NCBI GenBank assembly: GCA_037893245.1
Contig: JBAIAA010000447.1
Coordinates: forward strand, 1-64,000
Reading direction: 5' to 3'
Length of the DNA: 64,000 nucleotides
Source: Crossaster papposus
Lineage: Eukaryota; Echinodermata; Asteroidea; Velatida; Solasteridae
Shown here piece after piece: positions 5,815-31,352 of this stretch. The translations under genes and the position numbers were made by a program. Position 1 is the first letter of the stretch, and the number at the start of each line of letters is the position of its first letter. The notes below the pieces were generated by a model, which was not told where the DNA came from, searched no databases, and was given only the letters and a program-made list of their open reading frames with translations.

Positions 5815-6072
5815 GCAGGGTGTTTCGTCAGTTCACATACATGTACGGATGCGTCAGAGTACTTGACTATTTAGAATTTGCAATCGCAATGATGACTTTA
5901 GAATGCACATCAATATGAAACCAATGGACAACCAGCAATTTAGTGTAGTGTCCTCACTTTGATAGGTGTAATTCACACACACTCAAGTGTCCTCCATTGG
6001 ATAGAATGACAAGTATGCCCTCAGTGTGGTAGTGTCTACATGTATGCGTGTACATGTAGGTGTAACTTTTAT

Positions 6073-6203
6073 TAATTCTTTTGGGTTATTTTTTGTAACC
6101 CTAAAAGTCCTCAATCCTCCAACAGGTGAAGGGTTGATTAATTCTTTTGGGTTATTTTTTGTACCCTAAAAGTCCTCAATCCTCCAACAGGTGAAGGGTT
6201 GAG
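6073..6203 (+). repeat. 66-bp direct duplication at the element left end, copy B only
   Basis: A segment starting attaattcttttggg and ending gaagggttg occurs twice in a row here but once at the equivalent place in copy C (about 20146-20210). It contains a cctcaatcctcc word that also recurs in the low-complexity repeat at 60130-60535. This is a length variant between otherwise near-identical copies. Confidence 0.7.
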
Positions 6204-6349
6204 GACTTGTTGGGGTTAATGCAATTCGCCATATCACACAAGGTCGAGGCCACGCAGGTGGGGGCTACTACTAAGGGAAGATGAACAGAGGAACCAGCTC
6301 TTCACACTGAAAAAAGATCCATGCTTCCCAGATTTCTTTCACAATGCGA

Positions 6350-6590
6350 TAGAGCTTGAAGGGGTAACTAGTCTGAGGCAAGGCATACGCCTCTACCCCT
6401 AAAGTAAAATAACAGTGGTATTTTGTTTTGTTCACTTGCTCCAAATCATAAAAGATGTCTGCATCCGGAACATATAAAATAACATTTTTTAAAACTTTTT
6501 TTTCAGAACCCTATCAAATATTCACTCTGGGTGCCCAGAAGCCAGAAACAAATTTGTAAATCAAGTGTTTTTTTGCAAGCACCATCTCCC
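6350..6590 (+). repeat. Left-end module shared with the cassette-array units, copy B
   Basis: This stretch, from ggggtaactagtctgagg to gcaagcacc, is a diverged copy of the second half of every array unit. That half includes the acccctaaag block, the ctgcatccgg block and the gaaccctatcaaatattcac block. As in the units it is followed directly by a C-rich tract. It therefore links the outer end of the element with the internal array. Confidence 0.7.
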
Positions 6591-6896
6591 CCTCTCCCCT
6601 CTCCCCTCTCCCCCTCCCCTCCCCCCCTCCCCCCTCCCCCTCCCCCCTCCCCCCTCCCCCCTCCCCCCTCCCCCCTCCCCCCCTCCCCCTCCCCCTCCCC
6701 CCTCCCCCCTCCCCCCTCCCCCCTCCCCCCTCCCCCTCCCCCTCCCCCCTCCCCCCCTCCCCCCTCCCCCCTCCCCCCCTCCCCCTCCCCCCTCCCCCCT
6801 CCCCCCTCCCCCCTCCCCCCTCCCCCCTCACCCCTCCCCCTCCCCCTCCCCTCCCCCCCTCCCCCTCCCCCCCTCCCCCCTCCCCCCTCCCCCCTT
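6587..6896 (+). repeat. Pyrimidine tract, mainly C6T/C5T heptamers and hexamers
   Basis: About 310 bp contain only C and T on the plus strand apart from one A near 6830. Runs of five to seven C are separated by single T. The minus strand is therefore an uninterrupted series of G-runs. Open frames through it (Pro/Ser-Leu on one strand, Gly-Arg-Glu on the other) are artefacts of the repeat. Unit lengths are irregular here, unlike the copy C tract. Confidence 0.9.
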
Positions 6897-6964
6897 TCCA
6901 ATGTTGAGATGTTTGCCGGTCCGTGCGCACAAAGTGGAACCGCCCAAAATGAACAACACTGAAC

Positions 6965-6981
6965 AGGGGGGGGGGGGGGGG
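6965..6981 (+). repeat. Poly-G run, copy B
   Basis: A run of about 17 G lies 65 bp after the pyrimidine tract. The same place in copy C (21007-21031) has about 25 G. Length is probably unstable or poorly called. Confidence 0.85.
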
Positions 6982-7789
6982 GTACGCTTAACCCCTGACC
7001 AAAATTAGTGAACAGCGTGTACGGAAATCGATAAATCTTGGGTTTCCGCACAACAAATTCCAAGTGTTTGCTTGGCATTTCGGCTGATGCTTTTGGACAG
7101 CACAACAACCATTTTACAAAGTGAAAGTATAAAATTTTTTACACAGTCACCAGTATTCATTTAAATTAATGTACATTTTATTGTTCAAGTGCATTTTTTT
7201 TTAAATGTACATTATATATTCAGTTTTTTTCGTTTGGTTTTAGAATTTCAATTTCATTATGTTTTAAAGTTTGCTTTTGTTTAATTTTGTTATATTACTT
7301 TTGGAGGGGGCGTGCAATTGCAGAATTGGCATCATCATTTTTATTTGCTTTTTCAAACCACCATGGACAGTTCTATAAAGGAATACTACCTCTGAACAAA
7401 CTTAGGACCTTATTTTTAATAATATAATTGTTTTTGTAAACACTCTAATGCCTAATGCTCATCTAAAAAAAAGATGATTGTTGTTAATTGTACTATGTTT
7501 GTGACATGACAGTATAGACATAAACATGGAAGTCTACAGTTAAATTGTAGATGTTTGCAATCGTGCTGAAAACCACCTTTTCACATTGTATGACAAAAGA
7601 TTGCCGTAATTAGAAAAAAAAAAACCTGTTTAACATAGAGTTTTCCTTCAAGTGTTACAAACAAACAAGCGATATCTAAAAATCAGTACAAGTTGTGTAG
7701 CATAGTACATGTACATTTTATCTGGCAATAAAAACAATCAGTTCTTAATTGCGGAAAACTAATTCATGTTTCTTGGTCTTGATTTTGTG
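6982..7789. other. AT-rich spacer without a gene
   Basis: This stretch and its counterpart in copy C (21032-21838) have no convincing coding frame. They contain T-runs, A-runs and a tacatgtacat palindromic word. They lie downstream of the Rep gene and could hold its 3' untranslated region. Confidence 0.5.
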
Positions 7790-8149
7790 TTAAGGTAGAA
7801 TACACCATTTGCAGATATCGAAAGAATTTACTACCTAATTATTAAAAGATATCTTATCATCTGAAAGTTAATAATTAATAATGATTGGAGGCATCCAGCA
7901 AATTGAGTGCGCTAGATGTCCTTTAATTATTCTGAAAAATATAATTTTATTTAAAAAAAATTGCGATCGCGAAAAAACACAATTAACATAAGATCAACTG
8001 CTCGACGCCGGTTAAAAATAAACGCTGTTTGTGCTTTTCTCAGCATGCACGATTGTCAAACTTCGGACATAATTTTCTTAAACTACACCCCCCAAATCCA
8101 CCCATTCATGATAATTCAAGCTATTACCAATGGTGTATCCTATCTTTAA
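7790..8149 (+). mobile_element. Short terminal-inverted-repeat element (MITE), copy B
   Basis: Ends are inverted copies of about 20 bp beginning aaggtaga/gatacaccatt and ending aatggtgtatcctatctt, next to ttaa on both sides. It contains a gcgatcgcg palindrome. The same family occurs at 21839-22200, 37307-37575 (truncated), 53081-53448 and 54389-54766, so it is a dispersed family that happens to sit inside the large element. It has no coding capacity. Confidence 0.8.
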
Positions 8150-8286
8150 GTAATGATGTACTAAATTCCTTATTTCACCAGGGTAGACCCTATAATTATC
8201 TAAATACACCGTGACCTTGAGTAAAACTTGTTTAGTTGAGAGAATATTTGTAAAGCAAATAATATATTTAGTGAAAAAACATTTGG

Positions 8287-8287
8287 G

Positions 8288-8321
<34 letters not shown>
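8287..8321 (+). repeat. Poly-G run downstream of Rep, copy B
   Basis: A run of over 30 G follows gggc and precedes gaattc. The counterpart in copy C (22340-22364) is about 24 G. It lies about 95 bp beyond the Rep stop codon. Confidence 0.85.
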
Positions 8322-8415
8322 ATTCAAAAAAACCCACATTTGTACCATTTGTCTTATTGTCTTATTTAACCTCTCATTCTAACAAATACATATAATAATC
8401 AATCTTTACCCAATA

Positions 8416-10123
8416 TCAGCGACGCAAAGCAGCGCGTACAAAGTGGAACGCGCTTTTGTTGGTCTTCAGGAATTTGGTAGTGAATGGAAAAACCTTCCAA
8501 CGGACAGCCATCATTTCAGTTTCCCTCTCATCTACAGCCCCACCCTGGACAAGCACAAGTTGATGTTTCCCAGTACAAAAAATTGGGGTGTCATTTCTAA
8601 AAACTAGATCTCGTGCAAAGTAGGATTTAGGGGCCGGAAGGTGGACAAGTTGACCTTCTAGTAATAAAAGAAGGTCTTGCCAGGGTATCCATTTGTTGAG
8701 TCCAACGAAAGTCATTGAGAAAGAGGACTTCTGCCTGCTCTCAGCACCAATCCACGCAAACGTGGTTGTGCTGGGTGGTAAATGTTTTATAGATTTTGTT
8801 GAGTGGATTTAATAAAAATGTTTTTCCGCAATTTGCTGGGCCAGTATCATTATGTTACGATATTTTCCCCTGCCTTTGTCAGAAGCGTGGCAACTGCTTC
8901 TGTAAAAGTCTGTTCGAACCCACCATTGTTATGGCAGAACGTCTTTAGCACATCTCAGCCAGTCGCCATGACAGACACATTTATCGACTTTATGACACTT
9001 CTCCAGTATTTGAAGTCGAGTCAGTCTCGATCGCTCTAGTAGTGGTTCAGCTTCCGCCATGTCCCAGGCGTCCTTTAAACAAAATGGGAAGGGGGAAGGG
9101 GTGGGGGGGGGGGGGGAGGAGGGAGAGAGAAAAAAACACACAATAACATACTGGATGAATTTACAACAGGCTTCGAACAGTCAGGCGCAAGGAGTTCTAC
9201 TTTTTTTCAGACAAAATTAAATAAGCATGAGAGATATATACTATTAGGGCTTATTAACGAATTTTCAAAGAGTCGGTATAAATAATAATTGTTGTTGTTG
9301 TTGTTTTCTATTGTGGGGGATTCTGCGACCCTCATCAATATGTACACAGCTAAAGTGTAATGAAAAATTTGTGGAAATCTGAGTTTATTAAAACACTAAT
9401 TTGTTAGCAAAGATGGTGTGTACCTCAAATTATTTGATGTTCATTTAATGCAGCCTATAGCTATGTGTTACCTTTAGTACTTGGTGACAACTCTCTCGCC
9501 CCTGTTGATTATAACTCGGCCAGGTCGGTTTTTCCCATCGTTTTCTGTTTGTTGGCAAGGCCAACAACTCCAAGGCGTGATGACTTGATGCCTTGGAGAC
9601 CATGATTTGGCCGACGTCGTAGGCCGACAACCGGGGATCGCACTTTTTCTTGGACGGTTGTTCCGTAATCTCTGCAGACCGCTCACACGACCGCGGTCAT
9701 GACGCACTTTAGAGGCCTGGGCTGTCCTAGGCGGGTCCGCGTTTGTCAAATCGGGATGGCCGGGTGACTGTATTACAAGTTCGTCTTCCTCATGACATAC
9801 TGCCATGCGCTGAAATAATTGGTGTGATTGGACGAAAAGTTCACTCTGATACCGTTCACATCAGCTAAACGATTTCGCACTTGTAGCCAGCGCATGGCAG
9901 CTTGAAGTTTAACCGCCATGTGATAGTGAAAACCCCGTTTATGTGAGGTTCCTTGCAGCAAGACCAGCACACGACATGCACCGGGACTAAAAGCTTGCAC
10001 GACTTTTCCCGCAAATGTCGCTCGATCTGGTATGACCCTATCGTCTGCCTGGCTGTAGGTAATCAAGTAGACTTGTCGCACTTGACGGTCCGCCAGTGGC
10101 ATTAATTCCACGTTGTTGTCCAT
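8416..10123 (-). pseudogene. Rep-type HUH endonuclease-SF3 helicase gene, copy B, frameshifted
   Basis: This is the same gene as 22558-24158. The start codon is at 10123, exon 1 is 9472-10123 and exon 2 is 8416-9072, with the same GT-AG junctions. Several one-base indels break the frame. Examples are in the segment just before the histidine pair of the HUH motif, in the region after the motif III tyrosine, and early in exon 2 just after the CHGDW motif. Most are in runs of G, C or A, so read error is a real alternative to decay. This copy does keep an open C-terminus: it reads through the codon that is a stop in copy C and adds about 33 residues, including an EMMAVRWKVF motif, before a stop at 8416. 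Confidence 0.75.
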
Positions 10124-10219
10124 GTGGTTCGAGTGCGGCCAAAATGTAGACCAAGTGCCCGGATAGATGTCGATGATGCCAATTCTGCAATTGCCCCAAT
10201 GACACTACACGACCGGCGG

Positions 10220-10227
10220 CTTATATA
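10220..10227 (-). promoter_or_regulatory. TATA box of the Rep gene, copy B
   Basis: On the minus strand the sequence is TATATAAG, 97 bp before the Rep ATG. No other ATG is in between that would disturb the chosen start. Spacing leaves room for a transcription start about 30 bp downstream. Confidence 0.6.
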
Positions 10228-11102
10228 GCCTTGCAATTACCCAGCATCAAATTTTCTCCATGCTAGAACAATCAACTACAATGTACATTCAAAAACTACA
10301 CGTGTCTCGTTGGACAAATGTTACTTAACTCTTAATGACGTCATATTATGTACACCTGTCAAGTTGGCACCCTGCCAACGTCGTAGACCGTCACGGTCAA
10401 ACCACTTCACGGTTGACAGTCGGCAAAAAAATGGTTTTAAATGTGATTGTATGAATCTTTTTCTTATTTGTCTTGTCATGAGAGTTTCAAATGTGCCGTC
10501 TGACCAATAGATGGTTTTGTGGTTGCAATGTGTCTTAATTCGCTGGGAAGCTTGAGTAAACGTGAACGGTTAACCCCCTACTGGTAAAGTAAGATAAGAA
10601 TTATTATTACTTTAAACACAGACTTATGGTTTACCGTTGAATAAAACAATGATTCACGGATTCTCGTAAGTCAATATACCGAAAGTAACATTATATTGTT
10701 TTTTTGACGCTGAAAAGTCACTGTTAAAAACAGACATTCGTTTGGAGGGTCGCCGTTATCTTGAATTAGTCATGGTAAACCGTGGTGCCTCCTCTTTGGT
10801 CTATCGTGTCGACCGTTAGAAACTCCACCCACACCCTTCCTAACCGCAAAATATAATTTACCTATATGATCAGCGTGTTGTAAGGCCTTTGAAATTAATA
10901 GGAGACACTATAAACAGGAACAAAATGCTGGCGGCCTAGACACATTTTTATCATTTTCAATATGTGGGTCATCACGAGGAATATTGGTCCAAATTGGTGT
11001 CGGAAATATTGTTAGACTCGGAACGGGTTAATGGATGCGTCCGTTTACGTAATTCTTATTATCTCTACTCAAAATCAATGCAGTGGCTTAGCTAGCCAGC
11101 GC
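10228..11102. other. Divergent intergenic region between Rep and recombinase genes, copy B
   Basis: About 0.87 kb without a coding frame. It contains the Rep TATA box at one edge, the recombinase-gene TATA box at the other, a tgacgtca CRE-like site near 10337 and the nested inverted repeats at 10356-10419. The copy C counterpart is 24264-25130. The compact arrangement suggests shared control of both genes. Confidence 0.55.
10356..10419. promoter_or_regulatory. Nested inverted repeats near the Rep promoter, copy B (possible replication origin)
   Basis: An outer pair CTGTCAA/TTGACAG encloses a perfect hairpin GTTGGC-accct-GCCAAC (10363-10379), a palindrome GACCGT-c-ACGGTC and a GTCAA.../GGTTGAC pair. 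It lies 130 bp upstream of the Rep TATA box in the divergent intergenic region. Rep proteins usually act at hairpins or iterated sites next to their own gene, so this is the best origin candidate. That role is inference. Confidence 0.45.
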
Positions 11103-11112
11103 TATATAAAAG
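11103..11112 (+). promoter_or_regulatory. TATA box of the recombinase gene, copy B
   Basis: TATATAAAAG lies in a GC-rich setting, with a tcagtcggtg initiator-like sequence about 30 bp downstream. Two candidate leader exons with good donors follow. Confidence 0.55.
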
Positions 11113-11132
11113 CATGATTGAAAAGTTTAGTC

Positions 11133-11625
11133 AGTCGGTGTAGTACAGCCCGTCTGGGTGCGTGTACATGTCAATACCGCAAATGGAGGGCTTTAATGTA
11201 AGTACAACACTCACATACTGAGGACACCTTGCAAACCGAGCGCGTCCTCGGTATGAAATATTGTGAAAAATGGCACTTTCGTGGCCGTTTTTGACTGTTG
11301 GTTAAATATCAAAGCGTTTGGGAGGAGTCCTCGGTTGACGCATAAGATCTGACGTGAGGCAGTATGCACATTTTTTTCCCCGTCAAAAAAAACAGCAAAC
11401 GGGATTACTCTGAATGGCATAGCGCCCTCCGTTGGTTGCGCGTGTGAAAATGACGTAAATGTAAACATGTATGTACAATTACATGTGTACATTACATGGA
11501 CAACATACTCGTTCAGACATGTCTTAACTATTATAACGTTGTTTTGGCCTAAGTGCATATTGTAGTTTATGCGAAGACGTGGTCATTTGCAGCTAGCTAG
11601 GTGTACCATGGAGCTGGAATAAATG
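11133..11625 (+). other. Candidate 5' leader exons of the recombinase gene, copy B
   Basis: Leader exon 1 runs from about 11133 to 11197 and ends ctttaat before gtaagtac. Leader exon 2 is 11593-11625, 33 nt, between a tttgcag acceptor and another gtaagtac donor. If joined, they hold a 14-codon upstream open frame starting at the atg near 11182 and stopping inside exon 2. A long intron would then lead to the exon with the Tudor start codon at 12417. Counterparts in copy C end at 25225 and lie at 25618-25650. Only splice consensus supports this. Confidence 0.35.
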
Positions 11626-12416
11626 GTAAGTACAGCAATTGTATTTGAAGCTTGCATGTTACTCGCTATGACTGAGTATGATTGTAGCAGAGTATGACAT
11701 ATATGACGTGCTCATTTACATTGTAATGTAATTTTTAGTTATGGCCTCGATCTGTTACTATAGTCTATAGGATGATATGGGAAGTGAATATGCCTAATTT
11801 CAGAATAATATAGAAGTTATAACCAAATTTAACTGCTTTATTTGCCAACGCAAGCATGAGTTGTGGAGCACCGTGCGAACAAGAAATAGTTAATTGTAGT
11901 TATTGTATAAATAATAAAACAAATAAGTAGCCACAATTATTAATATTTAATTGTATAAGCCAAATTGGTATTCCAACTGCACATGCGCACATTTTCCCTT
12001 GACGAATTTTTCTTTCGATATAAAACATTTCATTCGATGCGTGCAAAAGCATAGCGGGGTACCAGCAAATTTCAAGAGATCGTCGTGTTTTAAAGTTACT
12101 AAGTAACATATTTTTGTTTACGTTTGGTGTTTTCAGCCGCTTTGTGGCCAAACTTTTGTTCGAACAAATATTATTTATTTTTTTCGATTTCACAAGAAAA
12201 TGTAAAAAATGCGGATTTGGTTACCACGTCCCCCATAGCCTTGTGTGCATTTGTCTGCCGTGTTTGTATCACTTGACCTCCTTGAGAAAAATTGTTGAAT
12301 CTTGTTGTGCACATGCGCAGTCGGAACTCCAAAGTGGCTTATTATCAGTTTAATGGTATATTGTTGTTGTATTGTTGTGTAGTCTAGGTGTGGCTGACAG
12401 AACTACCATAACAAAC

Positions 12417-13946
12417 ATGAAACGAAGTAGTCGTCTTGATGGAACCTTGACAAATCACCAGCATCATGAAGGGGAGAACGTAATCGCACTGTGGCCTCCA
12501 GATTCATCATGGTATCCTGCCGTAATAATCTCCTTCACCAAAGGTAAGTGCGGAGCCTCTAAAAGGACATATGACGAAAACAAATGAAATGCCCTCGTAA
12601 TTTGTGGGTTCACGTTAACGTGAACCCACATTAGGGTTGTGGGTTCCGTAGGTAAGAAATTTAATCCATAATGTAGAATCCCATTTGTCACACATAAATT
12701 AAGACAGCTGTATACCCTCTTACATCCCCCCATGACATGTACCACATGTAAATAAACAATGCCATTTTTCCTAAACTTGATTCCTCCCCCCCCCCTTTCA
12801 GAACCAAAAATATATATGATCTGTAAACAACAAATACTTTTCAACATTCCACTCCCAATTGCATGTAATCCCTTTAAAGTTTAATTAGTTGAATTTGTGG
12901 CTTTCTTATCAGGAAAGTACTGCGTCCGATACACTGATGGTGTGACACGCTGCCTATTTGAGCACCAGGTGAGAAAATTACCATAGAATGCATTAATTAA
13001 AAACAGACAGGTTAGGAAGAATACAAATGAAATGCGTAATTCTTCCAAATAGGCACTTGGGGAGACAAACTAGCGTAATGTTTTAGGTAATAAGGAGACA
13101 GTGGCACTTAGGGAGACATTTTAGTGTCTCCCTAAGTGCCTTAGAAGTCTTAGAAGTCATATAATGAATGCACATGACACAAATTCTCATTTGAATTACA
13201 TATCTTTTTATGAAGAGGATAAATACCGGTATGTCGTCAGTTAAGTTGCCACATCAAGGGCGAATGTTGTTGCTTGTGATGGTGTTAAAATAGATAGTAT
13301 ATTTTATAGATAACACAAAGAAATTGTTATTTGTTTAAAATTAAATGTGATTTTGATTTGATTTCTATGCCAGGTGGCCCATCCGAGTTTCTTGAGTCCG
13401 CACTTAAATGGTTCAGACAGTCTACAAAGCAGTTCCATTTGGGATGATGGCCCACAGGCTGATTCTGGTACAGGACCTGCCGTTTGTACTGCTCCATATG
13501 AGGTAATTCACACACACTCAACTTGTTTTCAGAACCCAAATATTCACTCTGGGTGCCCAGAAGCCAGAAACAAATTTATAAATCAAGTGTTTTTTTTGTA
13601 AGCACCCCCCCCCTTTCACCCCCCCCCCCCCACCTCACACCCCACCCCTCCCACCCCTCCCACCCCTACTCCCAACTCCCTCTCCTTCAGAGGGGCAACT
13701 AGTCCGAGGCAATTAGGCATATGCGTCTACCCCTAAAGAAAATAACAGTGGTGTTTTGGGTTTTTTCCACTCGTTCTAAATCATAAACGTTTTCTGCATC
13801 CGGCAACATAGAAAGTAGTAAGATTTTGATTCATTAGTGAACTTGTTTTCTGAACCCTATCAAATATTCACTGTGGGTGCCCAGAAGCCAGAAACAAATT
13901 TGTAAATAAAGTGTTTTTGGCAAGCACCATCCCCCCCCCCCCCTTC

Positions 13947-13978
<32 letters not shown>

Positions 13979-16900
13979 ACACACACACCTACCCCTCCCC
14001 CACACACCCACCTACCCCTCCCCCACACACCCACCCCTCCCCTCGCCCTCCCACCCCTCCCCAAAGAAATTGTTATTTGTTTAAAATTAAAGGTGATTTT
14101 GATTTGATTTCTATGCCAGGTGGCCCATCCGAGTTTCTTGAATCCGCACTTAAATGGTTCAGACAGTCTACAAAGCAGTTCCATTTGGGATGATGGCCCA
14201 CAGGCTGATTCTGGTACAGGACCTGCCGTTTGTACTGCTCCATATGAGGTAATTCACACACACTCAACTTGTTTTCAGAACCCAAATATTCACTCTGGGT
14301 GCCCAGAAGCCAGAAACAAATTTATAAATCAAGTGTTGTTTTTTTGCAAGCACCCCCCTCCCCCTTTCACCCCCCCCCCCCCACCCCACACCCCACCCCT
14401 CCCACCCCTACTCCCAACTCCCTCTCCTTCAGAGGGGCAACTAGTCCGAGGCAATTAGGCATATGCGTCTACCCCTAAAGAAAATAACAGTGGTGTTTTG
14501 GTTTTTTTCCACTCGTTCTAAATCATAAACGTTTTCTGCATCCGGCAACATAGAAAGTAGTAAGATTTTGATTCATTAGTGAACTTGTTTTCTGAACCCT
14601 ATCAAATATTCACTGTGGGTGCCCAGAAGCCAGAAACAAATTTGTAAATAAAGTGTTTTTGGCAAGCACCATCCCCCCCTTCACCCCCCCCCCCACACAC
14701 CCACCCCTCCCCCACACACCCACCCCTCCCCTCGCCCTCCCACCCCTCCCCAAAGAAATTGTTATTTGTTTAAAATTAAATGTGATTTTGATTTGATTTC
14801 TATGCCAGGTGGCCCATCCGAGTTTCTTGAATCCGCACTTAAATGGTTCAGACAGTCTACAAAGCAGTTCCATTTGGGATGATGGCCCACAGGCTGATTC
14901 TGGTACAGGACCTGCCGTTTGTACTGCTCCATATGAGGTAATTCACACACACTCAACTTGTTTTCAGAACCCAAATATTCACTCTGGGTGCCCAGAAGCC
15001 AGAAACAAATTTATAAATCAAGTGTTTTTTTTGCAAGCACCCCCCCCCCCCCCCCACCCCACACCCCACCCCTCCCACCCTACTCCCAACTCCCTCTCCT
15101 TCAGAGGGGCAACTAGTCCGTGGCAATTAGGCATATGCGTCTACCCCTAAAGAAAATAACAGTGGTGTTTTGGGTTTTTTTCCACTCGTTCTAAATCATA
15201 AACGTTTTCTGCATCCGGCAACATAGAAAGTAGTAAGATTTTGATTCATTAGTGAACTTGTTTTCTGAACCCTATCAAATATTCACTGTGGGTGCCCAGA
15301 AGCCAGAAACAAATTTGTAAATAAAGTGTTTTTGGCAAGCACCATCCCCCCCCCCCCCCCTTCACCCCCCCCCCCCCCACACACACACCTACCCCTCCCC
15401 CACACACCCACCCCTCCCCTCGCCCTCCCACCCCTCCCCAAAGAAATTGTTATTTGTTTAAAATTAAAGGTGATTTTGATTTGATTTCTATGCCAGGTGG
15501 CCCATCCGAGTTTCTTGAGTCCGCACTTAAATGGTTCAGACAGTCTACAAAGCAGTTCCATTTGGGATGATGGCCCACAGGCTGATTCTGGTACAGGACC
15601 TGCCGTTTGTACTGCTCCATATGAGGTAATTCACACACACTCAACTTGTTTTCAGAACCCAAATATTAACTCTGGGTGCCCAGAAGCCAGAAAAAAATTT
15701 ATAAATCAAGTGTTTTTTTTGCAAGCACCCCCCCCCCCCTTTCACCCCCCCCCCCCCCCCCCACCCCACACCCCACCCCTCCCACCCCTACTCCCAACTC
15801 CCTCTCCTTCAGAGGGGCAACTAGTCCGAGGCAATTAGGCATATGCGTCTACCCCTAAAGAAAATAACAGTGGTGTTTTGGTTTTTTTCCACTCGTTCTA
15901 AATCATAAACGTTTTCTGCATCCGGCAACATAGAAAGTAGTAAGATTTGATTCATTAGTGAACTTGTTTTCTGAACCCTATCAAATATTCACTGTGGGTG
16001 CCAGAAGCCAGAAACAAATTGGTAAATAAAGTGTTTTTGGCAAGCACCATCCCCCCCCCCCTTCACCCCCCCCCCCCCCCCCCCACACACACACCTACCC
16101 CTCCCCCACACACCCACCCCTCCCCTCGCCCTCCCACCCCTCCCCAAAGAAATTGTTATTTGTTTAAAATTAAAGGTGATTTTGATTTGATTTCTATGCC
16201 AGGTGGCCCATCCGAGTTTCTTGAATCCGCACTTAAATGGTTCAGACAGTCTACAAAGCAGTTCCATTTGGGATGATGGCCCACAGGCTGATTCTGGTAC
16301 AGGACCTGCCGTTTGTACTGCTCCATATGAGGTAATTCACACACACTCAACTTGTTTTCAGAACCCAAATATTCACTCTGGGTGCCCAGAAGCCAGAAAC
16401 AAATTTATAAATCAAGTGTTTTTTTTGCAAGCACCCCCCCCCCCCCCCCCACCCACACCCCACCCCTCCCACCCCTACTCCCAACTCCCTCTCCTTCAGA
16501 GGGGCAACTAGTCGAGGCAATTAGGCATATGCGTCTACCCCTAAAGAAAATAACAGTGGTGTTTTGGGTTTTTTCCACTCGTTCTAAATCATAAACGTTT
16601 TCTGCATCCGGCAACATAGAAAGTAGTAAGATTTTGATTCATTAGTGAACTTGTTTTCTGAACCCTATCAAATATTCACTGTGGGTGCCCAGAAGCCAGA
16701 AACAAATTTGTAAATAAAGTGTTTTTGGCAAGCACCACCCCCCCCCCCTTCACCCCCCCCCCCCCCCCCACACACCCACCCTCCCCACACACCCACCCCT
16801 CCCCTCGCCCTCCCACCCCTCCCCAAAGAAATTGTTATTTGTTTAAAATTAAATGTGATTTTGATTTGATTTCTATGCCAGGTGGCCCATCCGAGTTCTT

Positions 16901-21031: not shown

Positions 21032-21838
21032 TTACGCTTAACCCCTGACCAAAATTAGTGAACAGCGTGTACGGAAATCGATAAATCTTGGTTTCCGCAC
21101 AACAAATTCCAAAGTGTTTGCTTGGCATTTCGGCTGATGCTTTTGGACAGCACAACAACCATTTTACAAAGTGGAAGTATAAAATTTTTTACACAGTCAC
21201 CAGTATTCATTTAAATTAATGTACATTTTATTGTTCAAGTGCATTTTTTTTAAAATGTACATTATATATTCAGTTTTTTTCGTTTGGTTTTAGAATTTCA
21301 ATTTCATTATGTTTTAAAGTTTGCTTTTGTTTAATTTTGTTATATTACTTTTGGAGGGGGCGTGCAATTGCAGAATTGGCATCATCATTTTTATTTGCTT
21401 TTTCAAACCACCATGGACAGTTCTATAAAGGAATACTACCTCTGAACAAACTTAGGACCTTATTTTTAATAATATAATTGTTTTTGTAAACACTCTAATG
21501 CCTAATGCTCATCTAAAAAAAAGATGATTGTTGTTAATTGTACTATGTTTGTGACATGACAGTATAGACATAAACATGGAAGTCTACAGTTAAATTGTAG
21601 ATGTTTGCAATCGTGCTGAAAACCACCTTTTCACATTGTATGACAAAGATTGCCGTAATTAGAAAAAAAAAAACCTGTTTAACATAGAGTTTTCCTTCAA
21701 GTGTTACAAACAAACAAGCGATATCTAAAAATCAGTACAAGTTGTGTAGCATAGTACATGTACATTTTATCTGGCAATAAAAACAATCAGTTCTTAATTG
21801 CGGAAAACTAATTCATGTTTCTTGGTCTTGATTTTGTG

Positions 21839-22200
21839 TTAAGGTAGAATACACCATTTGCAGATATCGAAAGAATTTACTACCTAATTATTAAAAGATA
21901 TCTTATCATCTGAAAGTTAATAATTAATAATGATTGGAGGCATCCAGCAAATTGAGTGCGCTAGATGTCCTTTAATTATTCTGAAAAATATAATTTTATT
22001 TAAAAAAAATTGCGATCGCGAAAAAACACAATTAACATAAGATCAACTGCTCGACGCCGGTTAAAAATAAACGCTGTTTGTGCTTTTCTCGGCATGCACG
22101 ATTGTCAAACTTCGGACATAATTTACTTTAAACTACACCCCCCAAAATCCACCCATTCATGATAATTCAAGCTATTACCAATGGTGTATCCTATCTTTAA
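21839..22200 (+). mobile_element. Short terminal-inverted-repeat element (MITE), copy C
   Basis: This is the counterpart of 7790-8149 at the same place in the large element, so the insertion predates the tandem amplification. It differs by a few substitutions and one-base indels. Confidence 0.8.
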
Positions 22201-22339
22201 GTAATGATGTACTAAATTCCTTATTTCACCAGGGTAGACCCTATAATTTATCTAAATACACCGTGACCTTGAGTAAAACTTGTTTAGTTGAGAGAATATT
22301 TGTAAAGCAAATAATATATTTAGTGAAAAAACATTTGGG

Positions 22340-22364
22340 CGGGGGGGGGGGGGGGGGGGGGGGG
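22340..22364 (+). repeat. Poly-G run downstream of Rep, copy C
   Basis: A run of about 24 G, shorter than the copy B counterpart. Confidence 0.85.
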
Positions 22365-22557
22365 AATTCAAAAAACCCACATTTGTACCATTTGTCTTAT
22401 TGTCTTATTTAACCTCTCATTCTAACAATACATATAATAATCAATCTTTACCCAATATCAGCGACGCAAAGCAGCGCGTACAAAGTGGAACGCGCTTTTG
22501 TTGGTCTTCAGGAATTTGGTAGTGGAATGGAAAAACCTTCCAACGGACAGCCATCAT

Positions 22558-24158
22558 TTAAGTTTCCCTCTCATCTACAGCCCCACCCTGGACAAGCACA
22601 AGTTGATGTTTCCCAGTACAAAAAATTGGGGTGTCATTTTCTAAAACTAGATCTCGTGCAAAGTAGGATTTAGGGGCCGGAAGGTGGACAAGTTGACCTT
22701 CTAGTAATAAAAAAAGGTCTTGCCAGGGTATCATTTGTTGAGTCCAACGAAAGTCATTGAGAAAGAGGACTTCTGCCTGCTCAGCACCAATCCACGCAAA
22801 CGTGGTTGTTGCTGGGTTGGTAAATGTTTTATAGATTTTGTTGAGTGGATTTAATAAAAATGTTTTTCCGCAATTTGCTGGGCCAGTAATCATTATGTTA
22901 CGATATTTTCCCCTGCCTTTGTCCAGAAGCGTGGCAACTGCTTCTGTAAAAGTCTGTTCGAACACACCATTGTTATGCAGAACGTCTTTAGCACATCTCA
23001 GCCAGTCGCCATGACAGACACATTTATCGACTTTATGACACTTCTCCAGTATTTGAAGTCGAGTCAGTCTCGATCGCTCTAGTAGTGGTTCAGCTTCCGC
23101 CATGTCCCAGGCGTCCTTTAAACAAAATGGGAAGGGGGAAGGGGGGGGGGGGGGAGGGAGAGAGAAAAAAAACACACAATAACATTACTGGATGAATTTA
23201 CAACAGGCTTCGAACAGTCAGGCGAAGGAGTTCTACTTTTTTTCAGACAAAATAAATAAGCATGAGAGATATATACTATTAGGGCTTATTAACGAATTTT
23301 CAAAGAGTCGTATAAATAATAATTGTTGTTGTTGTTGTTTCTATTGTGGGATTCTGCGACCCTCATCAATATGTACACAGCTAAAGTGTAATGAAAAATT
23401 TGTGGAAATCTGAGTTTATTAAAACACTAATTTGTTAGCAAAGATGGTGTGTACCTCAAATTATTTGATGTTCATTTTAATGCAGCCTATAGGCTATGTG
23501 TTACCTTTAGTACTTGGTTGACAACTCTCTCGCCCCTGTTGATTATAAACTCGGCCAGGTCGGTTTTCCCCATCGTTTTCTGTTTGTTGGCAAAGGCCAA
23601 CAACTCCAAGCGTGATGACTTGATGCCTTTGGAGACCATGATTTGGCCGACGTCGTAGGCCGACAACCGGGATCGACGCTTTTTCTTGGACGGTTGTTCC
23701 GTATCTTCTGCAGACCGCTTCACGACCGCGTCATGACGCACTTTAGAGGCCTGGGCTGTCCTAGGCGGGTCCGCGTTTGTCAAATCGGGATGGCCGGGTG
23801 ACTGTATTACAAGTTCGTCTTCCTTCATGACATACTGCCATGCGCTGAAATAATTGGTGTGATTGGACGAAAAGTTCACTCTGATACCGTTCACATCAGC
23901 TAAACGATTTCGCACTTGTAGCCAGCGCATGGCAGCTTGAAGTTTAACCGCCATGTGATAGTGAAAACCCCCGTTTATGTGAGGTTCCTTGCAGCAAGAC
24001 CAGCACACGACATGCACCGGACTAAAAGCTTGCACGACTTTTCCCGCAAATGTCGCTCGATCTGGTATGACCCTATCGTCTGCCTGGCTGTAGGTAATCA
24101 AGTAGACTTGTCGCACTTGACGGTCCGCCAGTGGCATTAATTCCACGTTGTTGTCCAT
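22558..24158 (-). CDS. Rep protein: HUH endonuclease fused to SF3 helicase
   Basis: A predicted replication initiator that would nick DNA and unwind it. Exon 1 is 23505-24158 (218 codons) and exon 2 is 22558-23115, joined in phase 0 by a GT-AG intron with a long pyrimidine tract. The ATG at 24158 sits in an accATGg context and is the first ATG after a TATA box 98 bp upstream. In exon 1 the HUH motif has H66 and H68 (FHYHMAVKL), motif III has Y109 and K112 (YVMKED), and a basic nuclear-localisation-like run is at 157-164. In exon 2, Walker A is GPANCGKT at 296-303, Walker B is EVLFLND at 333-339, and a motif C-like DTPIFCTGKH is at 379-388. Translation stops after 403 residues at a TAA where copy B has a Glu codon, so about 33 C-terminal residues are lost. 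The layout resembles Reps of CRESS-DNA viruses and related animal genomic sequences. Nuclease and helicase assignments are by motif. Confidence 0.8.
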
Positions 24159-24255
24159 GGTGGTTCGAGTGCGGCCAAAATGTAGACCAAGTGCCCGGAT
24201 AGATGTCGATGATGCCAATTCTGCAATTGCCCCAATGACACTACACGACCGGCGG

Positions 24256-24263
24256 CTTATATA
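24256..24263 (-). promoter_or_regulatory. TATA box of the Rep gene, copy C
   Basis: TATATAAG on the minus strand, 98 bp upstream of the ATG at 24158, identical in context to copy B. Confidence 0.6.
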
Positions 24264-24390
24264 GCCTTGCAATTACCCAGCATCAAATTTTCTCCATGCT
24301 AGAACAATCAACTACAATGTACATTCAAAACTACACGTGTCTCGTTGGACAAATGTTACTTAACTCTTAATGACGTCATATTATGTACAC

Positions 24391-24452
24391 CTGTCAAGTT
24401 GGCACCCTGCCAACGTCGTAGACCGTCACGGTCAACCCTTCACGGTTGACAG
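24391..24452. promoter_or_regulatory. Nested inverted repeats near the Rep promoter, copy C (possible replication origin)
   Basis: Same arrangement as 10356-10419. The innermost pair is more regular here (GTCAACC-cttcac-GGTTGAC), two bases having been lost relative to copy B. A tgacgtca CRE-like palindrome lies about 15 bp to the left. Confidence 0.45.
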
Positions 24453-25130
24453 TCGGCAAAAAATGGTTTTAAATGTGATTGTATGAATCTTTTTCTTATT
24501 TGTCTTGTCATGAGAGTTTCAAATGTGCCGTCTGACCAATAGATGGTTTTGTGGTTGCAATGTGTCTTAATTCGCTGGGAAGCTTGAGTAAACGTGAACG
24601 GTTAACCCCTACTGGTAAAGTAAGATAAGAATTATTATTACTTTAAACACAGACTTATGGTTTACCGTTGAATAAAACAATGATTTCACGGATTCTCGTA
24701 AGTCAATATACCGAAAGTAACATTATATTGTTTTTTGACGCTGAAAAGTCACTGTTAAAAAACAGACATTCGTTTGGAGGCGTCCGGTTATCTTGAATTA
24801 GTCATGGTAAACCGTGGTGCCTCCTCTTTGGTCTATCGTGTCGACCGTTAGAAACTCCACCCACCCCTTCCTAACCGCAAAATATAATTTACCTATATGA
24901 TCAGCGTGTGTAAGGCCTTTGAAATTAATAGGAGACACTCTAAACAGGAACAAAATGCTGGCGGCCTAGACACATTTTTATCATTTTCAATATGTGGGTC
25001 ATCACGAGGAATATTGGTCCAAATTGGTGTCGGAAATATTGTTAGACTCGGAAAGGGTTAATGGATGCGTCGTTACGTAATTCTTATTATCTCTACTCAA
25101 AATCAATGCAGTGGCTTAGCTAGCCAGCGC

Positions 25131-25140
25131 TATATAAAAG
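25131..25140 (+). promoter_or_regulatory. TATA box of the recombinase gene, copy C
   Basis: TATATAAAAG, same context as copy B. Confidence 0.55.
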
Positions 25141-26444
25141 CATGATTGAAAAGTTTAGTCAGTCGGTGTAGTACAGCCCGTCTGGGTGCGTGTACATGTC
25201 AATACCGCAAATGGAGGGCTTTAATGTAAGTACACACTCACATACTGAGGACACCTTGCAAACCGAGCGCGTCCTCGGTATGAAATATTGTGAAAAATGG
25301 CACTTTCGTGGCCGTTTTTGACTGTTGGTTAAATATCAAAGCGTTTGGGAGGAGTCCTCGGTTGACGCATAAGATCTGACGTGAGGCAGTATGCACATTT
25401 TTTTCCCCGTCAAAAAAACAGCAAACGGGATTACTCTGAATGGCATAGCGCCCTCCGTTGGTTGCGCGTGTGAAAATGACGTAAATGTAAACATGTATGT
25501 ACAATTACATGTGTACATTACATGACAACATACTCGTTCAGACATGTCTTAACTATTATAACGTTGTTTTGGCCTAAGTGCATATTGTAGTTTATGCGAA
25601 GACGTGGTCATTTGCAGCTAGCTAGGTGTACCATGGAGCTGGAATAAATGGTAAGTACAGCAATTGTATTTGGAAGCTTGCATGTTACTCGCTATGACTG
25701 AGTATGAATGTAGCAGAGTATGACATATATGACGTGCTCATTTACATTGTAATGTAATTTTTAGTTATGGCCTCGATCTGTTACTCTAGTCTATAGGATG
25801 ATATGGGAAGTGAATATGCCTAATTTCAGAATAATATAGAAGTTATAACCAAATTTAACTGCTTTATTTTGCCAACGCAAGCATGAGTTGTTGAGCACCG
25901 TGCGAACAAGAAATAGTTAATTGTAGTTATTGTATAAATAATAAAACAAATAAGTAGCCACAATTATTAATATTTAATTGTATAAGCCAATTTGGTATTC
26001 CAACTGCACATGCGCACATTTTCCCTTGACGATTTTTCTTTCGATATAAACATTTCATCGATTGCGTGCAAAAGCATAGCGGGGTACCAGCAAATTTCAA
26101 GAGATCGTCGTGTTTTAAAGTTACTAAGTAACATATTTTTGTTTACGTTTTGGTGTTTTCAGCCGCTTTGTGTGGCCAAACTTTTGTTCGAACAAATATT
26201 ATTTATTTTTTTCGATTTCACAAGAAAATGTAAAAAATGCGGATTTGGTTACCACGTCCCCCATAGCCTTGTGTGCATTTGTCTGCCGTGTTTGTATCAC
26301 TTGACCTCCTTGAGAAAAATTGTTGAATCTTGTTGTGCACATGCGCAGTCGGAACTCCAAAGTGGCTTATTATCAGTTTAATGGTATATTGTTGTTGTAT
26401 TGTTGTGTAGTCTAGGTGTGGCTGACAGAACTACCATAACAAAC

Positions 26445-29400
26445 ATGAAACGAAGTAGTCGTCTTGATGGAACCTTGACAAATCACCAGCATCATGAAGG
26501 GGAGAACGTAATCGCACTGTGGCCTCCAGATTCATCATGGTATCCTGCCGTAATAATCTCCTTCACCAAAGGTAAGTGCGGAGCCTCTAAAAGGACATAT
26601 GACGAAAACAAATGAAATGCCCTCGTAATTTGTGGGTTCACGTTAACGTGAACCCACATTAGGGTTGTGGGTTCCGTAGGTAAGAAATTTAATCCATAAT
26701 GTAGAATCCCATTTGTCACACATAAATTAAGACAGCTGTATACCCTCTTACATCCCCCCATGACATGTACCACATGTAAATAAACAATGCCATTTTTCCT
26801 AAACTTGATTCCTCCCCCCCCCCCCTTTCAGAACCAAAAATATATATGATCTGTAAACAACAAATACTTTTCAACATTCCACTCCCAATTGCATGTAATC
26901 CCTTTAAAGTTTAATTAGTTGAATTTGTGGCTTTCTTATCAGGAAAGTACTGCGTCCGATACACTGATGGTGTGACACGCTGCCTATTTGAGCACCAGGT
27001 GAGAAAATTACCATAGAATGCATTAATTAAAAACAGACAGGTTAGGAAGAATACAAATGAAATGCGTAATTCTTCCAAATAGGCACTTGGGGAGACAAAC
27101 TAGCGTAATGTTTTAGGTAATAAGGAGACAGTGGCACTTAGGGAGACATTTTAGTGTCTCCCTAAGTGCCTTAGAAGTCTTAGAAGTCATATAATGAATG
27201 CACATGACACAAATTCTCATTTGAATTACATATCTTTTTATGAAGAGGATAAATACCGGTATGTCGTCAGTTAAGTTGCACATCAAGGGCGAATGTTGTT
27301 GCTTGTGATGGTGTTAAAATAGATAGTATATTTTATAGATAACACAAAGAAATTGTTATTTGTTTAAAATTAAATGTGATTTTGATTTGATTTCTATGCC
27401 AGGTGGCCCATCCGAGTTTCTTGAGTCCGCACTTAAATGGTTCAGACAGTCTACAAAGCAGTTCCATTTGGGATGATGGCCCACAGGCTGATTCTGGTAC
27501 AGGACCTGCCGTTTGTACTGCTCCATATGAGGTAATTCACACACACTCAACTTGTTTTCAGAACCCAAATATTCACTCTGGGTGCCCAGAAGCCAGAAAC
27601 AAATTTATAAATCAAGTGTTTTTTTTGCAAGCACCCCCCCCCCCTTTCACCCCCCCCCCCCCACCCCACACCCCACCCCTCCCACCCCTACTCCCAACTC
27701 CCTCTCCTTCAGAGGGGCAACTAGTCCGAGGCAATTAGGCATATGCGTCTACCCCTAAAGAAAATAACAGTGGTGTTTTGGTTTTTTTCCACTCGTTCTA
27801 AATCATAAACGTTTTCTGCATCCGGCAACATAGAAAGTAGTAAGATTTTGATTCATTAGTGAACTTGTTTTCTGAACCCTATCAAATATTCACTGTGGGT
27901 GCCCAGAAGCCAGAAACAAATTGGTAAATAAAGTGTTTTTGGCAAGCACCATCCCCCCCCCCCTTCACCCCCCCCCCCCCCCCCCCCCACACACACACCT
28001 ACCCCTCCCCCACACACCCACCCCTCCCCTCGCCCTCCCACCCCTCCCCAAAGAAATTGTTATTTGTTTAAAATTAAATGTGATTTTGATTTGATTTCTA
28101 TGCCAGGTGGCCCATCCGAGTTTCTTGAATCCGCACTTAAATGGTTCAGACAGTCTACAAAGCAGTTCCATTTGGGATGATGGCCCACAGGCTGATTCTG
28201 GTACAGGACCTGCCGTTTGTACTGCTCCATATGAAGCCTCAAGTGCCGAGTCACAGAGATCATCAACCGAGGCTACTGAGACCGGTCACATAACGGTCAT
28301 GGAGACCAGCAATGAAAGTGGGCACAGGAAATGGGACAAGAAACACTTTTGCTTTTTCTGTGAAGTACCTCAATCTAAGTTGCCCCGTCATCTCCAGTCA
28401 TGTCACAAAGAAGAGAGCGAAGTTGTAGAGATTGCGTCTGAGACCAACCCAAGTGCCCGTAAGATACTTCTGTGGAAAATCCGCAATGTTGGTAATCATA
28501 GGCACAATTGCCAAGTCCTTCGGAAAGGCCGGGGTGCACTTATTGTAGGATATAGGCCTAATCATAAGGTATCTCCACATGCATACGGACCGTGCATATA
28601 TTGTTATGGCTATTATGTGCGAAGTGATCTCTGGCGTCACCAGTGCCCACTGAAACCTGCACTCCCTGCACACTCGCATGGTAGCACTACCACAACTCCT
28701 CTGCGTAGATGTGTTGCTCACAAGAGTGATTTGTTAAAGCCTCCACCTGTCGGTGTGTCTTTCCAGTTGAACCAGGTTCTTATTCCGATGAAGAGAGATG
28801 AGGTGACTCTGCTGGCCAAGAATGACACTTTGATTGTGGAAGTAGCCAAGCGGGAATACGCGAAACTCGGGCACGATGTAGATCAACATGGCTACATCCG
28901 AAACAAGATACGGGAATTGGGTCGTCTTGTCATACAACTCCGCAAGAATACACACCAGCCAAATGCATCACTTGAATTATTTGTCCACCCCCACTACCTG
29001 AATGATATCATCAAGGCTATTCACGGTATTGCTGGCTTTAATGAAGACAAGCAGTTGTATGATGTTCCGTCTCTAGCTTTAAAGATTGGACATTCCATCA
29101 AGAAGTGTGCACTCATACTTAAAGGAAATGCTCTAGAGTCTGGCCAAAAGCAAAAAGCTCAACACGCTGAAGAATTTCTGCAGTTGTGCGAACTGACCTG
29201 GCGAGACCGTGTATCCACCCATGCACACAGAACACTGTACCAAGGAAAGCGCAACCAACCTCAAATTCTGCCGACAAATGCTGATGTTGTGAAAATGTCG
29301 GCGTTCCTCTATGAAGCTGGCAACAGAGAAGTGGAACTTGTCCAGGATGCTCGGGGCGAACAAATTGGACCAGCTTGGAAGAGATTGAATGAAGTCGCAC

Positions 29401-31114
29401 TGTGCCACCTTATTATGTTCAACCGCAGAAGGCAAGGGGAGGTATCAAAAATGAAACTAGAAGACTTTCAGAAGCACACAACAGCTAGTGTCAACGGGGA
29501 ATGCCTGCTGACTGATCTTGAACGGCATCTGTGCAAGATGTTCAGAGTTGTCGAAATAGTTGGCAAGAGGGGTCGAACTGTTCCTGTGCTTCTCAGCAAT
29601 GAGGTGGTGGCGTGGTTGAGTGCTCTGATTGCGAAGAGAAATGAAGCTGGAGTCGCCCACGACAACACCTACTTGTTTGCACGATGTTCTTATGGAGGTA
29701 CAGGTCATATAAGAGGATGTGACTGTATAAGATTGTACGCAGACATGGCGGGCCTTGACAATGCTGCCAGCATCCGGTCTACAAAACTTCGTAAGCACGT
29801 GGCAACCGCATCGCAAATTCTTGCCTTGAAGGAACATCAACTTGAAACACTTGCAAACTTCATGGGTCATGATTTGCGTGTCCATCGTGAATACTACCAG
29901 TTGCCAGATACTGTGCAGAGGGTCACCAAACTTTCTAGACTTTTTCTCAGCTTGGAGAGGGGAAACTTGCCTTCCCAGCAGGGCAAATCCCTGGATGAAC
30001 TGCATGTCACTGGTGGTAAGGACACAGTTGTTTTAAATTATTTACTCAACAGCAAAAGAAAGACATTAATTATTGCTTTTGTTGAAAAATATTTGATCAG
30101 TAATTACTATTCACTAATACATCTTCAACAGCGAAAGAAATGCAAGAAATAACATTTTGTTATCAGTTCACAATATATGATAACAAATGGTATACGTGTT
30201 TGTGTGCATTTCTTTTGCTATTGCTCCTGCATTACAGAACAAGAAAGAGAAATAGAGAAAAATAGAAAGAAACAGACCACAGAAATTTGACAAGAGTTGA
30301 GTCCACTTTTCTGAATTTACATGCAGGACAACAACCAACTGTCGGGTATGTGTGCATTAATCTAACAAAAACTGCTCTTTGTGACTTGCAGAAGGCTTCA
30401 CTAGTGACGAGGACAGCGATAACAGCAGTGACAATTCCTGTGATGTGCCCAGTGAAAACAGTAAGTTTAGGCTTTTATGTGTCTGTATTTTAACCAGTTC
30501 GCGCCGGATGACGTATATAAACGCAAAAATTTTCAAAAATTCAAAACGAATGACGCATAAGCCTGCCAAGTTCAAGTTCGGAAATGTATGTCAGCAGCGC
30601 GCAAGGCCGGAAATGCGTGGGTGTGCTTCCCGGCACTATCAGCCTGAACCCGCTTCAGATCGAGTTTCGTAAAAAATAATCCCGCCCGTGGGCTTGGCGA
30701 TGTTAAAATAATCCCGGCGCAAACTGGTTAAGTCGGGCTGTCTTTAAAAAAACAATTGTCTGTCTGTCCATTTGTTTGTTCATCTGGCTATCGGGCTGTC
30801 TGAATTAAAAGTGCCTAAATATCTGTGTTTTATATCGACTTGTTTCCTATTTGACATTAGGTACTCGACAGGCTCCTATCAGTGTTCCATCTAGAAGTCT
30901 GGCATCTCTGAACAACTCGAGACGAGTGAAACGTCGTCCCTGGACTGCCGAGGAGAAGGGAGACGTTACGAAGGGTTTGCAGAAATTCTTTCTGCTGAAG
31001 AAGCTTCCTGGCAAACGAGACATCGAAACATCCTGTCTTGTGGCACTGCAGACACGAAGCTGGAGGAACATCAAAGACTTTTGTCGGAACAAAATGAAGC
31101 TTCATCAAAGCTAA
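26445..31114 (+). CDS. Tudor-zinc finger-tyrosine recombinase-SANT gene, copy C (complete and open)
   Basis: Exons are 26445-26571, 26943-26998, cassette 27403-27531, main exon 28107-30015, then 30392-30460 and 30861-31114. They sum to 2544 nt, an 847-residue protein, or 804 if the cassette is skipped. Order of parts: Tudor-like domain (19-60), Ser/Asp-rich 43-residue units, two zinc-finger-like motifs, a helical N-terminal recombinase part, the catalytic part and an acidic linker (GFTSDEDSDNSSDN), then a SANT/Myb-like end. Counted from the start of the main exon, catalytic candidates are R442, R562, H588 and Y597, with Thr at the usual box II His. A Tudor domain normally binds methylated Lys or Arg on proteins, so this enzyme may be guided to chromatin. 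Tyrosine recombinases cut and rejoin DNA through the Tyr. Crypton-type elements also encode a recombinase, but I know of no Tudor or Rep partner there. Confidence 0.85.
26631..26658. other. 28-bp perfect palindrome in intron 1, copy C
   Basis: Identical to 12603-12630. Confidence 0.8.
27133..27170. other. 16-bp-stem hairpin before the array, copy C
   Basis: Identical to 13103-13140 and in the same intron. Confidence 0.75.
27349..28106 (+). repeat. Cassette-exon array 3 (contracted to two units)
   Basis: Units start at 27403 and 28107. The first has the 5' half of the 13374-type unit and a tail with the ttggtaaataaag variant otherwise seen in the tails of units 1409 and 15497. It therefore looks like a recombinant left by loss of four units through unequal exchange or slippage. 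Confidence 0.8.
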
Positions 31115-31352
31115 GCAGGGTGTTTCGTCAGTTCACATACATGTACGGATGCGTCAGAGTACTTGACTATTTAGAATTTGCAATCGCAATGATGACTTTA
31201 GAATGCACATCAATATGAAACCAATGGACAACCAGCAATTTAGTGTAGTGTCCTCACTTTGATAGGTGTAATTCACACACACTCAAGTGTCCTCCATTGG
31301 ATAGAATGACAAGTATGCCCTCAGTGTGGTAGTGTCTACATGTGTGCGTGTA

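Follow-up and report, generated by a model that had tools for sequence, protein, structure and literature searches.

Rep modules alternate with tyrosine recombinase or piggyBac transposons in arrays of a sea star genome

Do a Rep gene and a tyrosine recombinase (YR) gene that lie side by side belong to one mobile element or to two? The question is raised by a stretch of 64,000 nucleotides from the sea star Crossaster papposus (GenBank assembly GCA_037893245.1, contig JBAIAA010000447.1, positions 1 to 64,000 of the forward strand), here called the window. The original prediction, made from the sequence alone, took positions 6052..31352 as one element type that pairs a Rep protein (HUH nuclease plus SF3 helicase) with a Tudor-zinc finger-tyrosine recombinase-SANT protein. 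Self-comparison and junction mapping gave another answer: positions 1-31350 are a head-to-tail array, Y(partial)-R-Y-R-Y, followed by other sequence, and the predicted span takes in two modules, R (6051-11164 and 20123-25192; 5.11 and 5.07 kb), with the Rep gene on its minus strand, and Y (11165-20122 and 25193-31350; 9.0 and 6.2 kb when complete), with the YR gene on its plus strand. Each unit does contain two different DNA-processing enzymes in divergent genes, as had been predicted. The array is nevertheless composed of two separable modules and is not a single two-gene element, because Y has its own ends, Y is present in far more copies (394 versus 52 exact left ends), and junctions between two R modules represent the empty site for Y. 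The array junctions lie at about 6050 and 20122 and the right end at 31350; the features are as follows.

1-6050, plus strand: Y module copy 1, its left part beyond the window; YR main exon (2807-4852) intact
6032-6066: Y-right/R-left junction, CTACATGTA-TGCGTG-TACATGTAG, with a perfect 9-bp inverted repeat around 6 bp
6051-11164: R module copy 1; Rep gene at about 10123-8430 on the minus strand, frameshifted
11146-11180: R-right/Y-left junction, CCCGTCTGGG-TGCGTG/TACATGTCAATACC (here and below the stroke marks the joint)
11165-20122, plus strand: Y module copy 2; frameshifted YR gene in which one exon occurs six times (with starts from 13373 to 16882)
20123-25192: R module copy 2
20123-20242: hairpins at the R left end, candidate replication origin
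22558-23142, minus strand: Rep exon 2, SF3 helicase (Walker A/B), ended by an early stop in R copy 2
23487-24158, minus strand: Rep exon 1, HUH nuclease (HYH, YVMK)
25193-31350, plus strand: Y module copy 3; YR main exon intact
26445-26998, plus strand: YR exons 1-2 (26445-26571, 26943-26998), Agenet/Tudor-like; exon ends placed by eye at GT/AG sites
28107-30152, plus strand: YR main exon, with two CxxC/H motifs (by eye) and the tyrosine recombinase domain (R442, K487, R562, H588, Y597)
30870-31113, plus strand: YR 3' exon, the predicted 'SANT' part, without a Pfam match
31332-31352: right end of the array, Y-right and then other sequence beginning TATGTGTGTG

Ends and junctions of the two modules

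When the host genome (1.02 Gb, 1841 contigs) was searched with the module ends, the left end of Y was found exactly at 394 places and that of R at 52, and the right end of R at 54 places with at most one mismatch; the pattern lengths differ, the Y pattern being shorter. Given these numbers, most Y copies cannot adjoin R. Among 516 candidate Y 3' ends 40 were scored, 15 of which have no exact R-left alongside, and all 14 of these that were read stop at CTACATGT followed by A or G and TGCGTG, eleven of them continuing into flanking sequence and three into another Y. Seen from R, its left end is preceded by TGCGTG at 43 of the 52 places, where the 16 that were read show 15 Ys and one R; the remaining nine places read as six Ys with a variant core and three flanks. 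On the right side of R, 44 of the 54 places were read (13 + 31), and they continue into Y in 39 cases, into R in one and into flank in four; the other ten comprise eight R-R junctions recognised by overlapping coordinates and two unread places. The R-R junction read at C467 (...CCCGTCTGGGTGCGTG/TACATGTAGG...) shows, without a break, the site that is occupied by Y elsewhere. R-R junctions are thus the empty site for Y, and Y is therefore an insertion in R. The view that Rep belongs to a fixed YR element as one of its genes was rejected, as the modules are separate, and the possibility named beforehand as fatal to that view, that Rep might be an independent insertion in a recombinase element, turned out nearly reversed.

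Both modules join at TG/TACATGT-like sites. Left flanks, whether beside Y or R, end in TG in 10/10 cases, and right flanks begin with TA in 14/16 and with TACA in 12/16, so that short terminal direct repeats of Crypton style (4-6 bp, shared with the target) can be recognised as the TG of the left and the TACA of the right flanks. One site, C88, consists of R-Y with flank on both sides, and at seven other sites Y adjoins the left flank. At C676 (L072-L074) Rep modules lie 5.6 kb apart with a variant of Y-left after each R-right, which may represent a non-autonomous Y of very small size lodged in R. A separate region (C138:130823-863850) holds 13 Y left ends, all in one orientation, across 0.73 Mb.

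The activity of R and Y looks recent: many contigs show precise ends, and R copies on contigs beyond the window share 98.8-99.9% identity when the best single alignment of each pair is taken. The R copies of the window are 97.2% identical to each other and 96.5-98.8% to other copies, and one R pair from a single array was read elsewhere, at C467, with 99.8% identity. At six Y-R-Y sites the two Ys differ by 0, 0, 0, 0, 0 and 1 substitutions over their first 2.1 kb (gaps uncounted; the second Y at C467 lacked the length to be included), compared with a mean of 1.43 substitutions in 60 pairs of Ys from different sites, and only 173 of 200,000 random pairings matched the likeness within sites. This fits arrays that derive from one molecule lineage, as concatemers of one circle would, and is also compatible with local duplication or conversion.

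Coding capacity and a second Rep-YR family

The catalytic residues that had been named are present in both proteins and invariant in diverged relatives (47-72% identical). In Rep, H66/H68 and Y109/K112 (H104/H106 and Y147/K150 in P0001 numbering) are invariant in 3/3 aligned families, and Walker A (GPANCGKT) and Walker B (FLNDFRW) in 4/4; in YR, R442, K487, R562, H588 and Y597 are invariant in 2/2. By these motifs Rep combines an HUH Y1 nuclease with an SF3 helicase, which is a trait of CRESS-DNA virus and parvovirus Reps, and its two exons are predicted to form one protein. The Pfam matches of the window Rep lie below the curated cut-offs (Parvo_NS1 E=0.004, REP_ORF2-G2P E=0.013), and the SF3 exon of one diverged relative lies above that of Parvo_NS1 (24.8 versus 20 bits). 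For YR, PF00589 is the only recombinase model in the Pfam list, also below its cut-off (E=5e-4), and neither DUF3504 nor GCR1_C is matched there. Since the family models are weak, the assignment of both proteins rests on motifs, conservation and order. The predicted domain series of YR held for the recombinase residues and, below cut-off, for the Tudor part (Agenet/Tudor models, best E=5e-5); no Pfam zinc-finger match is listed, and the 'SANT' part has zero Pfam matches at E<=10. As in Cryptons, the YR residues occur in an element without reverse transcriptase. A PDB search returned two Rep helicase chains at E=0.029, below Midasin P-loops as top matches (E=0.003), and nothing usable for HUH or YR. 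PHROGs gave weak matches only, to families without a fitting function; no confirmed relative was found in IMG/VR, nor in phage records, where the SF3 exon was the only query. A Bacteroidetes match (L105), weak and 40 aa long, was set aside.

In the window family, most scored copies have an open Rep gene with an intron-like gap between its exons. The HUH exon is stop-free in 10/11 R copies, as is a 194-aa helicase piece in 10/11, and in R copy 2 of the window the stop falls just past that piece. Outside Rep, no frame of at least 150 codons was found in 11/11 R copies, a C-rich repeat stretch excepted, and no capsid gene was detected by this frame scan, which short or spliced genes might escape. 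The two lowest folding z-scores among 158 windows of R, which overlap each other, belong to the hairpins at 20123-20242. A stop-free frame of 101-135 codons on the minus strand at R positions of about 39-440, present in 8/11 copies (for example C88, C97 and C87) and absent from both window copies and C162, may be due to chance.

The size difference between Y modules is caused by a tandem block of exon and intron of about 700 bp, whose exon start is present six times in one complete copy of the window and twice in the other. The 43-aa YR exon and its C-rich intron (13373-16882; 27402-28106) are thus tandemly repeated in a number that varies between Y copies, and the YR protein may vary in repeat number accordingly. 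The 681-aa YR frame is unbroken in 9/10 complete Y copies, and all 65 YR matches scored among 1698 candidates are stop-free, the scoring favouring the best copies. Of the gene copies in the window, Rep copy 1 and YR copy 2 carry frameshifts, and the helicase exon of Rep copy 2 is cut by a late stop; unbroken copies of both genes are common elsewhere.

A second family, here called family B, shows the pairing in diverged form. At C792 (L093) a Rep that is 59% (HUH) and 70% (SF3) identical to that of the window lies beside a YR that is 72% identical, in the same arrangement. Adjacency of Rep and YR is thus seen at numerous unlinked sites and recurs in a diverged family; this part of the original prediction is supported, in contrast to the single two-gene element. 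Family B Reps are spaced by 5.56 kb or 12.06 kb, once by 15.28 kb, corresponding to R-R or R-Y-R; a family B R-R junction that was read is again the empty site of Y, and in either family Y is found about 1.0 kb upstream of the Rep gene. The arrays C153, C311, C362, C848 and C395 are Y-R-Y, and C792 has Y at both ends among the scored matches. Neighbours were counted with the best 150 of 333 candidates of the Rep helicase search (7/150, which fit no class, being dropped), with YR matches from which 3/75 at 94-98% identity were dropped, and with 56 of the 394 Y-left ends. Within 12 kb, 16/39 family B Reps (the 70% class) have a family B YR and 3/39 a window-type Y (two YR matches, one Y-left end); conversely, 18/30 full-length family B YRs have a family B Rep. 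In both Rep exons and in YR, dN is 0.21-0.29 versus a dS of 1.7-3.1, which is near saturation; these values indicate that both partners are under constraint. At C1153, C745 and C97 a 70%-class Rep adjoins a window-type Y, which may point to an exchange of modules between the two families.

Rep modules paired with piggyBac

Beyond the original prediction, and not visible from the window, Rep is also paired with an unrelated enzyme. Two further Rep families, at 58% and 56% identity, share arrays with a piggyBac transposase whose DDE_Tnp_1_7 domain is clearly recognised (PF13843, E=3e-81 and 7e-84). A scored piggyBac lies within 10 kb of 23/26 Reps of the 58% family and 5/7 of the 56% family, compared with 0/56 of the window family and 0/39 of family B; viewed from the transposase, 31 of 86 listed piggyBacs (of 1695 candidates) have a Rep of the 58% or 56% family within 10 kb. 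In a class of Rep at 62-63%, 15 fragments were scored, 8 of them within 10 kb of a scored piggyBac.

Some ends of these arrays are those of piggyBac. The ends TTAA-CCCTTTCA...TGAAAGGG-TTAA are common to two solo piggyBacs and the C80 array (of the array copy, the left end was read), within which this piggyBac is lodged in R at TTAA. In the 56% family, TTAA-flanked CCC...GGG termini are found in the solo copies L096 and L097 and at the array end L098. In the 58% family, the last piggyBac of C669 ends, followed by TTAA and then by sequence unlike R; TTAA is present at the right end and inside-left, and TTGTAA inside-right. The termini thus agree with those of piggyBac, with TTGTAA and TTATAA as exceptions. 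The suggestion that the C80 and C863 arrays are bounded by piggyBac on both sides was rejected, since their right sides continue into R. The layout of a composite transposon is seen at the Y-R-Y sites and at two array ends of the form piggyBac/TTAA/flank, other ends running into R or reaching contig ends. Two peculiarities were observed beside these arrays: a piggyBac next to the 58% Rep family (L091:5609-6212) holds within its own termini 613 bp that are 92% identical to the Rep 3' end and belong to the 62-63% class mentioned above, and tandem repeats of about 690 bp occupy part of an R module of the 56% family (L092:988-5477).

As to the rest of the window, the only reverse transcriptase-like ORF noticed lies outside the array (34371-35249, minus strand) and is presumably of the CR1/L2 kind. 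A large inverted pair of tandem arrays with units of about 80 bp is located at 45077-47750, and tandem repeats of 29 bp and 257 bp at 54852-55204 and 63308-63997.

A possible life cycle and its alternatives

How could such arrays arise? R is best read as a small replicon whose Rep is of CRESS/parvovirus type, with no capsid gene detected, and Y as an autonomous Crypton-like YR transposon integrated at one fixed TG/TACATGT-like site of R. From the observed structure and pairing we infer circles, rolling-circle replication and the action of both enzymes. The composite of R and Y would exit the chromosome as a circle or be copied out; Rep would replicate it by rolling circle into monomers and concatemers, with the R-left hairpin as the putative origin; and YR, acting on R in trans, would integrate segments at chromosomal TG/TACATGT sites or beside a resident copy, giving rise to Y-(R-Y)n arrays. 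Rep would be the common part, and the integrating enzyme, YR or piggyBac, would change with the resident transposon that supplies integration. We give a probability of roughly two in three to this reading, in which circular rolling-circle replicons carry an integrating transposon and transposon-bounded concatemers integrate. It draws on the module boundaries, the empty site, identical termini at many flanks and the target preference, as well as on the co-diverged second family, the near-identical copies, the closer likeness of Ys from one array than from different arrays, and the parallel case of alternating arrays with piggyBac in the role of integrase; the replicate-then-integrate cycle that had been proposed for the single element fits.

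Several observations weigh against it. Y-Y tandems exist without R (3/14 right ends read), so that YR alone, or with Rep in trans, can make arrays, and 30/65 top YR copies have no window-family Rep within 15 kb. Similarly, 20/39 family B Reps have no listed YR within 12 kb, among the best 75 of 1211 YR candidates that were scored. Flank adjoins 4/44 R-right ends read and 3/52 R-left ends, and R ends can therefore also be integration points. At the R left end of family B no hairpin stands out (best z -2.3 among 31 windows; tip -1.4). The left end of C863 is a piggyBac terminus with TTATAA in place of TTAA, and of the piggyBac array ends inspected, 3/6 (C80 right, C863 right, C669 left) continue into R. 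Finally, integration of one circle gives R-Y and not Y-R-Y, so that the proposed cycle requires dimers, Y-Y-R circles or a resident Y.

Three other explanations were weighed. R may be an endogenized single-stranded DNA virus, parvovirus-like or CRESS-like, that was caught by transposons which alone are mobile now; the Parvo_NS1 match of a relative's SF3 exon would suit this, as would the parvovirus-like repeats with NS1 and coat ORFs described for the acorn worm (PMC3198968). We consider it unlikely, given that in 11/11 R copies every frame of at least 150 codons lies in Rep or in the C-rich repeat stretch, and that Rep is open, with its intron-like gap, in most scored window-family copies. 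An accident of the chromosome, in which Y inserted in one R and unequal crossing-over and segmental duplication followed while Rep had no role in mobility, agrees with the head-to-tail order, with the position of several arrays at contig ends and with a Y identity that is higher within sites than between them. It accounts poorly for array ends that are transposon termini with different flanks on many contigs, for R copies that are about as alike across contigs (98.8-99.9%) as within the C467 array (99.8%), for Rep exons that are mostly open and constrained, and for the same pattern with the unrelated piggyBac; these points make it quite improbable.

The least probable explanation, in our estimate, is that Rep is the transposase of both modules, which would move by Helitron-like rolling-circle transposition with YR as cargo or resolvase. 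HUH elements do form tandem arrays and make no classical target duplication, as would suit the arrays described here, and a palindromic sequence is present at Y-right/R-left. However, the 394 exact Y-left ends versus 52 of R mean that most Y copies lie without R, no termini common to both modules were seen by eye outside the recombination core, and TTAA termini of piggyBac form one end of two piggyBac-paired arrays (C80 left, C669 right). A simple Helitron was rejected because of the SF3-type helicase motifs and the single-Tyr YxxK: Helitrons, too, are eukaryotic mobile elements that unite an HUH nuclease and a helicase, but theirs is an SF1/Pif1 helicase with a Y2 nuclease (PMC6213432).

Returning to replicons that carry an integrating transposon, three resemblances are highlighted: the proposed logic resembles that suggested for Teratorn, the array form that of KolobokP, and the enzyme pair that of bacterial integrating rolling-circle elements. 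Among the last, the actinomycete integrative elements (AICE) such as pSAM2, which we take to work alike, combine rolling-circle replication by a Rep with site-specific integration by a YR; they are bacterial, use tRNA targets and carry conjugation genes. Teratorn (piggyBac and a herpesvirus) shares the transposon within a replicon and a proposed scenario of a rolling-circle concatemer and integration between two transposon copies, but is a herpesvirus of 180 kb, whereas here a Rep module of about 5-9 kb is combined with two unrelated integrating enzymes (PMC10175614). KolobokP shows the same succession of terminal unit, internal part and terminal unit, with solo terminal units and multimers that have a terminal unit in common; its DDE transposase is encoded in the internal region, whereas here the flanking unit encodes the integrating enzyme and the internal part Rep (PMC9587614). 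Cryptons are YR-only DNA transposons with the catalytic residues R-H-R-Y and with short terminal direct repeats as recombination substrate, for which a circle model has been proposed (PMC3212892). Y resembles them in these residues and repeats and in the lack of reverse transcriptase, and differs in its Agenet/Tudor-like part, in having no DUF3504 or GCR1_C match listed and in forming arrays with a Rep module.

The nearest printed precedent found is that of the transposons resembling single-stranded DNA viruses (Tuber, with Rep and transposase ORFs, and the acorn worm), in which a Rep-like gene has been amplified in a eukaryotic genome, as here; they have 37-bp terminal inverted repeats (TIRs), and section 8 of that paper reports neither a YR nor composite arrays (PMC3198968). 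A Rep-YR or Rep-piggyBac composite is unreported in the titles and abstract openings of the literature searched, to which Repbase and most subscription papers do not belong. According to the same paper, Rep sequences are present in many eukaryotic genomes and no integrase activity has been identified for the viruses concerned (PMC3198968).

The two pairings encourage us to ask whether a eukaryotic class of replicon-transposons exists, in which capsid-less HUH-SF3 Rep modules would serve as replication engine, YR elements or piggyBac as interchangeable integrases, and transposon-(replicon-transposon)n concatemers as the form of spread; to us the case for and against such a class appears evenly balanced. 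In this one genome, near-identical Rep modules are flanked by copies of one or the other of two unrelated integrating enzymes, so the route is directly testable. Long head-to-tail transposon arrays would gain one possible explanation, and the bacterial integrating rolling-circle elements a eukaryotic counterpart.

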